Origin: a virus
Direction: 5' to 3' (one strand)
DNA: 30,766 nt
IMG/VR virus record: IMGVR_UViG_3300030118_004394
Span: 8,021-38,786 of that record
Made by a program: the position numbers and the translations under genes. Shown piece after piece: positions 1 to 3,077 of this stretch. Each line of letters starts with the position of its first letter. Position 1 is the first letter of the stretch. The notes beneath the pieces are model-generated. The model ran no database searches, was not told where the DNA came from, and saw nothing but the letters and a program-made list of their open reading frames with translations.

Positions 1-95
1 TCTCTAACATTATTTTCAGTAGGTTGTTCAATCTCACCACCATTATCTATGGTGGTGAGATTTGTTTCTCTTATTACATCTAAAATATTAGGCAT
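1..95 (-). CDS. Hypothetical protein, N-terminal fragment (cut by window edge)
   Basis: An ATG at 95-93 overlaps the stop of the upstream gene (88-90) by 8 bases and opens a frame of 31 codons that is still open at the left edge. It begins MPNILDVIRETNLTTI. The tight overlap is the arrangement used throughout this genome, which supports a real start. Against it, a perfect 12-bp hairpin sits inside the frame and the visible piece is too short to recognise. No function is assigned. Confidence 0.4.
   Translation of the reverse strand, partial: MPNILDVIRETNLTTIDNGGEIEQPTENNVR
32..60 (+). terminator. Strong hairpin, possible plus-strand terminator
   Basis: A perfect 12-bp inverted repeat (TCTCACCACCAT at 32-43, ATGGTGGTGAGA at 49-60) encloses a 5-base loop. 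On the plus strand it is followed by a T-rich stretch (TTTGTTTCTCTTATT), as in an intrinsic terminator. On the minus strand no T-run follows. It lies inside the open frame that starts at 95, so it could be an mRNA structure near that gene's start instead. What lies to the left is not visible. Confidence 0.4.
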
Positions 96-528
96 TAGAT
101 TTAACAATTTCAAATTTATATTCTACTGATTTAGTAGGAACTAAACAATCAGCCCAAATTTCTGGATACTTCTCTTTGAGTTTTTTTGTATCAACTCTAC
201 CAGATATTAATATAGGTTGTTTGTTTTCATTCAATAGTCTTGTTCCGTCGCCTTTAACTGCATAAGAACTTTCACGAACTATCTTTGAAATTGTTGTTCC
301 ATTGAAATCACCATAAGTATTAGATGAAATTTTTATTTTAGGAACTTTGGTAAGTTTAACAACAGATGTATTTAACTCATCAAAAATTTCTTGTACCAAA
401 TTTTTATTAGTCGCTAGAACTTTTTGTTTATCTAATACTTCTTGTTTTAGTAAACCATACTTTAAAATAAACTCCTCTTTAAACTTTGTTAAATAAGAGT
501 TTTTAATATTAAGTTTTAATTGTGTCAT
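88..528 (-). CDS. Hypothetical protein (146 aa), operator-headed single gene
   Basis: I place the start at the ATG at 528 (MTQLKLNIKNSYL), which has AGAGAGG five bases upstream. A longer frame to 576 would begin inside the promoter motif. The protein is lysine-rich with a helical N-terminal half and a C-terminal half containing SSNTYGDFNG and GRVDTKKLKEKYPEIWADC. I do not recognise the family. It is the last of three single genes preceded by a GTTAAC promoter and a GC-rich GGGAAAC island, so it looks like an independently transcribed accessory gene. The next frame begins overlapping its stop codon. Confidence 0.72.
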   Translation of the reverse strand: MTQLKLNIKNSYLTKFKEEFILKYGLLKQEVLDKQKVLATNKNLVQEIFDELNTSVVKLTKVPKIKISSNTYGDFNGTTISKIVRESSYAVKGDGTRLLNENKQPILISGRVDTKKLKEKYPEIWADCLVPTKSVEYKFEIVKSNA

Positions 529-547
529 TATTACCTCTCTTTGTTTA

Positions 548-568
548 ATTGTTAACACAATTATATTA
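548..568 (-). promoter_or_regulatory. Promoter with GTTAAC site, copy 1
   Basis: Read on the minus strand, TAATAT (563-568) is followed six bases later by GTTAAC (551-556) and then AAT. An alternative -10, TATAAT, lies at 560-565. No good -35 is seen: the upstream sequence is A/T homopolymer. The spacing matches the copies at 1395 and 1924, which suggests a shared repressor or activator site over the transcription start. Confidence 0.45.
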
Positions 569-615
569 AACCACATTTTTATAATAAAAAAAATAGTTTT
601 TTATTTTTTTTTGGT

Positions 616-710
616 AAGTTTTATCGAGTCCGAGCGCGCCCAGCTCGGAAGTTTATGGAGGTTTAAAAAAAGCCAGACCACGTCGAAACGGGAAACGGGA
701 CGGGGTTTAC
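616..710. repeat. GC-rich GGGAAAC island A
   Basis: A GC-rich block in AT-rich surroundings. It holds a 6-bp stem hairpin (CCGAGC 630-635, GCTCGG 643-648) and, at 685-705, GAAACGGGAAACGGGACGGGG. The last part is nearly identical to island B (1527-1547), including the following TTT. No credible gene is seen. It lies between the 197-aa gene and the promoter of the 146-aa gene. Confidence 0.6.
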
Positions 711-742
711 TGATTATTTAAAAAACAAATGACTAGAAGGCA

Positions 743-768
743 AACTGCTAGGAATAATCCTAGCAGTT
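743..768 (-). terminator. 11-bp stem hairpin after the 197-aa gene
   Basis: A perfect inverted repeat (AACTGCTAGGA at 743-753, TCCTAGCAGTT at 758-768) with a 4-base loop lies 16 bases past the stop codon of the gene at 784-1377. The T-run that follows on the minus strand is weak (TTTGCC, with a longer T-run about 20 bases on), so termination may be inefficient. The position right after a stop codon and before an island fits a terminator. Confidence 0.5.
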
Positions 769-783
769 CAAGGAAGGAACTAA

Positions 784-1377
784 TTAGCAAATCTGAAAAC
801 CTCCAGAGTGTCGTGCAAAGTTAATAAACTCTTTAACATTTTCCTTATCAAATGGATAAGAATCGTCCCAGTTTTTTTGTGCATTGATTTCTTTCCAATG
901 ATTATTATAAGGAAAAGGATAGTCTATTGGTGCAAGGTTTTCACCAGGTCTTAATCTTTCAACCTCCTTTTTAAGATCTGCTAATTTCTGCTCTACTTTT
1001 TTATTATGCTCACTTGCAATTTTTGCATTAGCTTTAGTAGACTTCTCAAGTTCAGCAACATAACCATTTTTAATTAGGTTGCTTAACCTTCGAGCAATAG
1101 CGAGTGCAGTATCTTCATCGAACTCTGTGCCACTATTATTATATAGTCCTTCCATTTGCTCATCAGAAAGTAAGTTATGACATTTAGCATGTATAAGGTT
1201 GGCAAGAGGTCGCCACCACCACACATTATTACGAAAATAATAACCTGGATTTTCTTCTTCAAATTTATTTAAAGCTTTGAAGTAAGCATCTTTATCGTCA
1301 TCTGTTGCTTTATCCCAATCAATCGTTGGTCGTTGGCTTTTTAGGTTAGGGTCTAACCCATATATATCAAAACCCAT
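784..1377 (-). CDS. Conserved hypothetical phage protein, MGFD...YFRNNVWWWRPL type
   Basis: 197 aa starting MGFDIYGLDPN, with AAAGGAG upstream of the ATG. The protein has the look of a small conserved family I have seen in phages and bacteria, without known function: an N-terminal MGFDxYG, a central GYYFRNNVWWWRPLANLI block around residue 50, a Lys/Glu helical linker at roughly 100-145, and a C-terminal FINFARHSGGFQIC. It has its own promoter with a GTTAAC site, and a hairpin follows its stop. I infer an accessory gene under the same control as the genes at 88 and 1643. The family memory is unverified. Confidence 0.82.
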   Translation of the reverse strand: MGFDIYGLDPNLKSQRPTIDWDKATDDDKDAYFKALNKFEEENPGYYFRNNVWWWRPLANLIHAKCHNLLSDEQMEGLYNNSGTEFDEDTALAIARRLSNLIKNGYVAELEKSTKANAKIASEHNKKVEQKLADLKKEVERLRPGENLAPIDYPFPYNNHWKEINAQKNWDDSYPFDKENVKEFINFARHSGGFQIC

Positions 1378-1394
1378 TGGGTTCTCCTTTCTTT

Positions 1395-1437
1395 ATTGTT
1401 AACAATTTAATTATAACAAAATGGAAAACATTTGCAA
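1395..1437 (-). promoter_or_regulatory. Promoter with GTTAAC palindrome, copy 2
   Basis: On the minus strand: TTGCAA (1432-1437), 16 bases, TATAAT (1410-1415), six bases, GTTAAC (1398-1403). Here the site is part of a perfect 12-bp palindrome ATTGTTAACAAT (1395-1406). The palindrome covers the expected transcription start, as an operator would. Confidence 0.55.
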
Positions 1438-1454
1438 GAAATTTTTTTTATGTA

Positions 1455-1550
1455 TTTCCGTCCAGAAAGTTTCCCCGCTGCGCCCGCCGCTAGCTTTTGC
1501 TGCTTAATAAAAAATTAGACGGACCCGAAACGGGAAACGGGAACGGGTTT
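1455..1550. repeat. GC-rich GGGAAAC island B
   Basis: A GC-rich stretch (CGCTGCGCCCGCCGC near 1474-1488) followed at 1527-1547 by GAAACGGGAAACGGGAACGGG and TTTT. The block resembles island A in the repeat part and island C in its CCGCTGCGC part. It lies between a minus-strand gene's 3' end and the next promoter, as islands A and C do. Confidence 0.6.
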
Positions 1551-1734
1551 TCATAGGATGCAGCACATGAGGACCACGAATAACCAAAAGGTCATCCGTG
1601 GATAACAGATAATCATCACCGCCAATGTAAGTAAATATCCCATTAGTGTTTACTAATCTTACTATTACACTTCGGACATTCCGGATCTTCAACTTTAGCG
1701 ACAAGGTCCTCTGTATTATTAAGGGCAACTTCAA
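1504..1734 (-). pseudogene. Possible gene remnant running into island B
   Basis: A minus-strand frame overlaps the 3' end of the 1643-1909 gene and continues through 1550. Its middle part (NTNGIFTYIGGDDYLLST, then DDLLVIRGPHVLHP) looks protein-like. Its last residues (TRSRFPFRVR) are simply the translated GGGAAAC repeat. There is no convincing start codon or ribosome binding site. It may be the tail of a gene whose front was lost, or a chance frame. Confidence 0.22.
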
Positions 1735-1909
1735 TTGTGTGACGAGCTTCTTCTAATGAGGGTGCCGAACTATATATAGCTTGTATTATATTAATGAGAG
1801 CTCCCTTTAATGCGTTTTCCACACCGAGAGATTTTTCTAGATTGCAAAGGTACTGATCTGTTTGATCGTAAGCTTTCTTCATGCCTGAGGCACTTAATTT
1901 TTTTTTCAT
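1643..1909 (-). CDS. Small hypothetical protein with C-terminal CPKC
   Basis: 88 aa starting MKKKLSASGMKKAYDQTD, with AGGAG a few bases before the ATG. It is mostly helical and ends with CPKCNSKISKH, half of a zinc-ribbon-like motif (two cysteines only). A 6-bp stem hairpin (ATTAGT 1642-1647, ACTAAT 1652-1657) overlaps its stop. It has its own strong promoter with a GTTAAC site and is a single-gene unit between islands C and B. I do not recognise the family. The short CxxC tail could bind metal as a dimer or be the remnant of a longer domain. Confidence 0.7.
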   Translation of the reverse strand: MKKKLSASGMKKAYDQTDQYLCNLEKSLGVENALKGALINIIQAIYSSAPSLEEARHTIEVALNNTEDLVAKVEDPECPKCNSKISKH

Positions 1910-1923
1910 TGTATACTCCTGTA

Positions 1924-1967
1924 TTGTTAACAGTTTATATATAACAGCTAATACAGCTAGCTGTCAA
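1924..1967 (-). promoter_or_regulatory. Promoter with GTTAAC site, copy 3
   Basis: On the minus strand a consensus TTGACA (1962-1967) is followed after 18 bases by TATATA (1938-1943), then six bases, then GTTAAC (1926-1931) and AATA. This is the best -35 of the three accessory-gene promoters. GTTAAC again lies over the expected start of transcription. Confidence 0.6.
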
Positions 1968-2300
1968 CCTGTTTTTATGGTCGGTCAAAGGTGCAGATTT
2001 CTGGGCTTTTCTTTACCGAAGGTTTCCCGCTGCGCGCGCTTCGCTGGTTCTGATGGAATGATAAAACCCCAGAAAACTAGGGCTTTCAACGGGAAACGGG
2101 AAACCAGATCAGGGCTGCGCAGGGCCTGGTCGGTGCTGGCAGGATTATAAAAACCCAAGGTTTCTGCGGGTTACGGGAAACGGGACTGCGCTGCAGCGCG
2201 CAGGGCCAGCTGCTGTAGAGCTCTTCTTATACTTGAGTGGGGAGTGCGAAACGGGAAACGGGAAACGGGAAACGGGAGTCCCGGCTCACGGATCTCGAGA
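1968..2300. repeat. GC-rich GGGAAAC island C (long)
   Basis: About 330 bases with several GC-rich blocks (CCCGCTGCGCGCGC near 2027-2040, a GCGCTGCAGCGC palindrome at 2188-2199) and three separate heptamer clusters: 2088-2104, 2173-2185 and 2248-2276. All GGGAAAC units are on the plus strand. Its right part lies inside the nuclease frame. The composition is unlike the rest of the window, which suggests an insertion or a repeat family from another source. Confidence 0.65.
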
Positions 2301-2572
2301 ATTTGGAACTCGGTCTTCAAGAGGGAGTAATGCAAGATAAAAGCTTTACCACCAGATCTGTTTCTTTTTAAGAACCAATTTATTTGATATTTAGATATTC
2401 CATAATTCTTAGCATCATTTGATTTTAATTCTAACCAAAATTCATTGCCGTCCATACAAGCATTAACGTCAGGTATTCCGTTGATTGTAGAGGATTCTAT
2501 TCTAACAAAATGCCAAGTCTTTTGTTTTTTTTGAATCAAGTTAATATGACGCCAAATTTCACTTTCTTTCAT
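2171..2572 (-). CDS. VRR-NUC-like PD-(D/E)XK nuclease with island-encoded C-terminus
   Basis: 133 aa. The core reads GIPDVNACMDGNEFWLELK (residues ~32-50), the PD-x10-ExK signature of small VRR-NUC or resolvase-like phage nucleases that cut branched or replicating DNA. The start overlaps the terS stop by 14 bases, so it is probably co-translated with terS. Native-looking sequence ends around FQILEIRE near residue 95. The remaining ~38 residues (LPFPVSRFPFRTPH, then an Ala/Arg-rich tail) are translated island C repeats. The nuclease core is intact, so it may still be active. Whether a native C-terminus was replaced or just extended cannot be told from one sequence. Confidence 0.8.
   Translation of the reverse strand: MKESEIWRHINLIQKKQKTWHFVRIESSTINGIPDVNACMDGNEFWLELKSNDAKNYGISKYQINWFLKRNRSGGKAFILHYSLLKTEFQILEIREPGLPFPVSRFPFRTPHSSIRRALQQLALRAAAQSRFP
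2253..2276 (+). other. G-quadruplex motif, four GGG runs
   Basis: GGG runs start at 2253, 2260, 2267 and 2274, each separated by AAAC, which meets the usual G3-N(1-7) rule for an intramolecular quadruplex. It lies on the non-coding strand of the nuclease gene, near the end of its native part. Confidence 0.5.
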
Positions 2573-3077
2573 TAACTTGTTTTGGTGTTACATCTATAAT
2601 ATTATCTGCATCTTTTATCTTATTTTCTAACTCTTTAAGTCTCTCTTCTAACTTATCTCTGCTCATTCCCTCCAATGTTGTATGTGCAATTTCTTTCTTA
2701 TCAACAAATTGACCAGCTAATTGACCGGCTCTAAACTCAGCATTTATTGCACCCGTATATTGTCCTTTCATCTCTGCGCCATTTCTTAATCTCTCAAATA
2801 TTTTATAACGACGTAATTTATCCTTCTCATACTTTTCTTGTTCTTCTTGTAGTTTTATCTCAAGATATCTACAAACATGTGGGTTAAGTTTTGGGTTTGT
2901 AAGTCGACTAGCTATGACAGCGATCGATTCATTTGATTGGTCTGTGCTGTACCCTGCTTTTCTTAACGCATCACTTTTCGAAATATTACCCCAATCAGCT
3001 ACTAAACAATCAACAAAAGCTTTTTGTTTTTCTGTTAAATCTTTTACAGTTCTTAAATTTTTTGGTTTTTGCGGCAT
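2559..3077 (-). CDS. terS: Terminase small subunit
   Basis: 172 aa. The N-terminal half LTEKQKAFVDCLVADWGNIS then DALRKAGYS is the classic helix-turn-helix of phage small terminases (residues ~14-50), which bind the packaging site and load the large subunit. The C-terminal half is helical and charged (residues ~75-165), suited to oligomerisation. The ATG at 3077 lies only five bases after a TATAAT box, so the transcript is probably leaderless. Downstream is a nuclease, not a large terminase, so TerL must lie elsewhere. Seven TTCCTA iterons sit just upstream and could be its binding sites. Confidence 0.85.
   Translation of the reverse strand: MPQKPKNLRTVKDLTEKQKAFVDCLVADWGNISKSDALRKAGYSTDQSNESIAVIASRLTNPKLNPHVCRYLEIKLQEEQEKYEKDKLRRYKIFERLRNGAEMKGQYTGAINAEFRAGQLAGQFVDKKEIAHTTLEGMSRDKLEERLKELENKIKDADNIIDVTPKQVNERK

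Follow-up and report, generated by a model that had tools for sequence, protein, structure and literature searches.

Morons of lambdoid phages are accessory genes that carry their own promoter and terminator and are inserted between conserved genes; to our knowledge, they share no repeat header with their neighbors. In the T4-type phages, the promoter early stem-loops (PeSLs) are termed "mobile regulatory cassettes": as described in PMC4503421 (citing Arbiol et al. 2010; Comeau et al. 2014), a promoter and a stem-loop or terminator are repeated between small variable genes, and these elements are credited with modular shuffling among related phages. The archaeal myovirus HGTV-1 carries TATA-box and inverted-repeat motifs before many of its ORFs, for which roles in regulation and shuffling have been proposed (PMC3950731). 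A first-pass annotation of the locus described below held that no named phage system was built in this way, a statement that these two already described precedents overturn. HTVC023P-type pelagiphages, the broad group to which we relate the locus, are described in PMC9599517, in which a search by term turned up nothing on intergenic or hypervariable regions.

The locus lies in a virus record of 38.8 kb, of which a stretch of 30,766 nucleotides (the window) was analyzed. The closest cultured relative found was Pelagibacter phage HTVC023P, whose terminase small subunit (TerS) gene is 66% identical in nucleotides and whose counterpart of a 197-aa protein is 32% identical in amino acids. Three GC-rich islands, A, B, and C, sit between TerS, with its adjoining nuclease-like ORF, and the terminase large subunit gene (TerL), which falls outside the window (Table 1). 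Judged from the sequence, this is probably a three-slot accessory-gene locus located between both terminase genes of a relative of the HTVC023P-type pelagiphages. In this group, three small slots are delimited by a conserved GC-rich repeat with a promoter after it, and their passenger genes vary among close relatives. The reading given in the first-pass annotation, that shared repeats flanking unrelated genes would allow exchange by recombination, is partly supported by the comparisons made here.

Table 1. Features of the three-slot locus, in window coordinates
Feature	Position	Strand	Basis or remark
Slot 3 resident, ~146 aa, function unknown	88..526	-	19 family members at same place
Header C, predicted (weak): -10-like TAATAT/TATAAT and GTTAAC, no good -35	551..568	-	Consensus match
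Island C, single unit 700-634	601..705	-	Profile; in relatives ~75 nt past stop of 197-aa gene or its passenger
Hairpin directly after stop of 197-aa gene (AACTGCTAGG...CCTAGCAGTT)	743..784	-	In L153, present after other genes
Slot 2 resident, 197 aa, uncharacterized phage protein	784..1377	-	567 relatives in IMG/VR
Header B, promoter-like: TTGCAA-16-TATAAT, then GTTAAC	1398..1437	-	Consensus match
Island B, single unit 1543-1472	1455..1550	-	Profile; in most relatives with islands, at about -190 to -100 relative to 197-aa gene
Slot 1 resident, 30-aa membrane mini-protein, central PR (MGYLLTLAVMIICYPRMTFWLFVVLMCCIL)	1551..1643	-	TAATG overlap with 88-aa gene
Slot 1 passenger, 88 aa, no known family	1643..1909	-	Family searches
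Header A, promoter-like: TTGACA-18-TATATA, then GTTAAC	1926..1967	-	Consensus match
Island A, tandem units 2264-2189, 2185-2114, 2102-2024; extra head copies to ~2280	1975..2330	-	GC, profile
Nuclease/helicase-like ORF, VRR-NUC-like by eye	2171..2572	-	PHROG 2165 (1.2e-15), PHROG 93
Terminase small subunit, upstream anchor	2559..3077	-	PHROG 51 (2.8e-8); Pfam Terminase_2 (4e-4, below cut-off)

The islands are built from a unit of about 79 nt, which in a profile constructed from relatives consists of a head (TTCCCGTTTCCCGTT), a variable middle, and a tail (GCGCGCAGCGGGG); profile search placed three units in island A and one in each of the others. Conservation of head and tail approaches 2 bits per position, a value that is biased upward because the units had been chosen by that same kind of search. 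The GGGAAAC islands reported in the first-pass annotation are real: the window contains 11 copies of this motif relative to 2.7 expected, a fourfold excess that none of 100 shuffles reached, and 10 of the 11 lie within positions 600-2300. The GC content likewise jumps sharply at the island edges, from 0.16 to 0.45 at about 600, from 0.25 to 0.51 at about 1450, and from 0.33 to 0.60 at about 2000-2300, before dropping again to 0.32 at 2300-2400. As coding stretches elsewhere in the record match the islands in GC, it is the repeats, and not GC alone, that are unique. A GC peak of 0.68 was also observed near a contig end in G006 (G006:C1:55364-55571), where the phage genome has a GC content of 35%.

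The first unit of island A encodes, in frame, the C-terminal ~45 residues of the nuclease-like ORF product (2171-2310, minus strand). Its in-frame position at the 3' end of an ORF recalls the Rickettsia palindromic elements. A template-strand G-quadruplex was discarded as a general feature, since four GGG runs are present only in this unit and the others have two or three.

In the direction of transcription, an island lies ahead of each of the 88-, 197-, and 146-aa ORFs, the order that had been reported originally. The accompanying claim of a shared promoter, with GTTAAC located six bases past the -10, stands for headers A and B, but not for header C, in which GTTAAC is present without a good -35. 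Header A was found before different genes in four relatives (L031, L035, L005, and L038), and the position of header B is kept over 58 distinct sequences upstream of the 197-aa gene (mean score 9.06, versus 7.25 for shuffled sequences). Six TGTTAACA palindromes occur in G000:C1 (at 8570, 9417, 9945, 11452, 12163, and 30676), three of them at slot headers. This palindrome is possibly an operator.

Slot 1 is not the single-gene cassette it was first taken to be, because the gene encoding the membrane mini-protein, overlooked in the first-pass annotation, comes after the 88-aa gene. Similar small proteins that align with it, hydrophobic and ~30-37 aa long, were present in about 25 contigs, mostly directly ahead of island B. 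The 197-aa protein yielded a structural model with a pLDDT of 94.7; a fold search with it returned no PDB match at E<=0.001, and its matches were unnamed viral proteins only. Across relatives, the passengers include DUF7249, DUF2314, DUF2958, and zinc-ribbon-like proteins, as well as unnamed small proteins. A slot usually consists of a conserved resident gene with optional passengers beside it. The genes are interchangeable only in part: passengers vary, but the 197-aa, ~34-aa membrane, and 146-aa genes are the usual residents.

Comparison with relatives establishes that the island positions are conserved. More than 40 IMG/VR contigs, in which the identity of the 197-aa protein ranged down to 43%, had units at matching positions, so the islands are not an assembly artifact; further, those contigs that were found to have the same genes in the same order also carry islands. 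The layout in relatives comprises two to four units after the nuclease, one unit ~190-100 nt before the 197-aa gene, and one ~75 nt after that gene or its passenger. In distant clades, the head takes the form of GTCCCG, GTTCCCG, GTTTGCCG, or GCCGTCCCG repeats. Within one genome, islands B and C are more alike than either is to those of other clades (mean score 38 versus 24), and in about half of 59 genomes the score between B and C was above that with every other clade. By this measure, the evolution of these two islands is concerted within a genome. HTVC023P itself, in which the same genes occur in a different order, had no detectable units. At the corresponding place in its genome (L062), after the f0 nuclease homolog, a different tandem repeat, TTGAGAATAACAACGAAAAA, was read by eye.

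The passengers between these fixed islands are variable, and the borders of similarity between genomes are mosaic. Relative to L075 and L031, the DNA of the window is 94-99% identical up to island A, 47-72% over slots 1 and 2, and 97% just beyond island C. The protein identities with L075 are 99% for TerS, 98% for the nuclease, 64% for the 197-aa protein, 96% for the 146-aa protein, and 92% for TerL, and the 88-aa gene, which in the window is followed by a second small gene, is missing from both relatives. Contig L153 (NZMJ01000006.1) is a pelagiphage-type contig misbinned in a Maricaulis MAG, with TerL 93% and nuclease 84% identical. In slot 2 of L153, genes encoding a DUF2314 protein and a 63-aa protein replace the 197-aa gene, and the surrounding islands, header, and hairpin are the same; the 197-aa gene was found neither in this slot nor in the searched genome record, although an empty search answer is weak evidence. 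L153 and the otherwise distant contig L016 share this DUF2314 protein at 91% identity. Thus, the same islands do surround different genes in relatives, as the first-pass annotation had anticipated.

A first broad test of exchange borders, on divergent pairs, gave little signal and was therefore repeated on closer pairs. In the latter, 24% of the borders were within 30 nt of a unit versus 12% by chance (counts that are not phylogenetically independent), an excess suggesting that islands are favored, but not exclusive, sites. Most borders lie away from islands, and many coincide with gene starts or stops or fall within the 197-aa gene; for instance, in comparisons of L073 with L023, and of the window with L066, they are at the ends of, or inside, this gene. 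The islands can therefore not be the sole exchange points, and the idea that exchange occurs at the flanking repeats fits the mosaic borders at islands A and C, but not the many at gene ends.

We propose that each slot would function as a short transcription unit, consisting of (i) an island, (ii) a sigma-70-like promoter, (iii) a TGTTAACA-like site just downstream, and (iv) a resident gene with optional passengers. The island would act as an insulator and, in some clades, as an intrinsic terminator; plausibly, the islands both insulate the slots and supply homology. Because all slots, and the relatives too, share similar islands and headers, recombination at these elements, or at adjoining gene ends, could swap or drop passengers, with the slot keeping its own promoter. 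From the sequence patterns we infer that islands would end transcription, that the headers would be active, and that homologous recombination in islands may be a main route of exchange. It seems unlikely that the unit is, beyond this, a dedicated recombination or regulatory element that is read by a phage-encoded factor, with its concerted evolution tracking that factor and the locus serving as a purpose-built exchange platform in a phage group that ranks among the ocean's most abundant.

A tentative alternative, which we regard as possible though less than probable, is that the units would be bound by a phage or host protein specific to the lineage (a nucleoid, partition, packaging, or transcription factor), and that the turnover of cargo is incidental. 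In both head and tail, it is the sequence rather than the fold that is conserved, and within the nuclease ORF the third positions of the head are ~95% conserved, versus ~72% in the preceding part of the ORF (small counts), which suggests a constraint acting on the DNA itself. In addition, head variants shift jointly across the islands of one genome, as expected from a changed specificity of such a factor; however, gene conversion between islands accounts for this concert equally well, and the number and spacing of units vary.

We consider it unlikely that the islands are ordinary intergenic terminators and promoters whose likeness is compositional. Some clades do have perfect intrinsic terminators in which the head forms the 5' arm, and a strong hairpin with a T-tract was predicted in 22% of non-redundant units versus 10% of shuffled ones (14% versus 2% for terminators of <= -12 kcal/mol). 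Most units are without a terminator, yet head and tail keep their high information content throughout. Still less likely is a set of packaging (pac/cos) or replication-origin repeats next to a terminase gene: the array lies directly downstream of TerS and the nuclease, and in the clade with units, the head 7-mer of the longest genomes is largely restricted to the locus, but the units are spread between genes over 1-2 kb, at three or more sites, and none are detectable in HTVC023P, which has the same genes in another order. A replication origin was rejected separately, as the cumulative GC skew does not turn at the locus.

More doubtful again is a GC-rich mobile palindromic element, comparable to those of Rickettsia, that inserted several times. 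Although the units are short, GC rich, and several per genome, one of them in frame inside an ORF, their positions are fixed across clades; moreover, the bipartite pattern was found in only five of 2.9 million viral contigs, all of the pelagiphage group under study, and, in a collection of bacterial and archaeal genomes, in two contigs, one a misbinned phage belonging to that same group and one a weak Streptomyces match. A host origin of the unit was also rejected, there being no convincing host match once the Maricaulis MAG contig was recognized as phage and the Streptomyces match as weak. The least likely reading, a structured non-coding RNA repeated in every island, draws on the folding of single islands (z of about -1.9 to -2.9), but conserved RNA structure was rejected as the main constraint because 78 non-redundant units had a mean z of -0.63, close to shuffled, with an empty RNAalifold consensus, and an Rfam search of the region gave no match above threshold.

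The reading that we prefer, slots set apart by islands and headers, bears on a group of some consequence: the related pelagiphages, which infect the ocean's commonest bacteria, are abundant and show a rapid turnover of their numerous uncharacterized small genes. Recognizable punctuation around swappable slots would mark the sites of gene gain and loss, and would provide a handle with which to search for new host-interaction genes.

Among the known systems, HTVC023P belongs to the same broad phage group but is without detectable units. The locus differs from the lambdoid morons in that its slots keep their residents and shared islands from clade to clade. The motifs of HGTV-1 are similar in placing a promoter-like motif with a repeat ahead of ORFs; there, however, the promoter is archaeal, the repeat is inverted, and many ORFs are involved, whereas here a bipartite unit serves three slots. 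The PeSLs offer two likenesses, a promoter upstream of variable genes (predicted here as good for headers A and B and weak for C) and a recurring element on either side of variable genes that relatives exchange. As to their stem-loop terminator, a strong hairpin with a T-tract was predicted here in 22% of units versus 10% of shuffled ones. PeSLs belong to T4-type myoviruses with T4-type early promoters, whereas the present phage is a relative of HTVC023P, is not T4-type, and has another host. Its element is a bipartite, GC-rich unit, often in tandem, often without a terminator, and concerted within a genome, and it is confined to three main slots at a single locus between the terminase genes. 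As the locus differs from the PeSLs in both phage group and element, we suggest that it works like a PeSL but should not be classed as one, and that it would extend a mechanism of the T4-type phages to a different, dominant group of marine phages.
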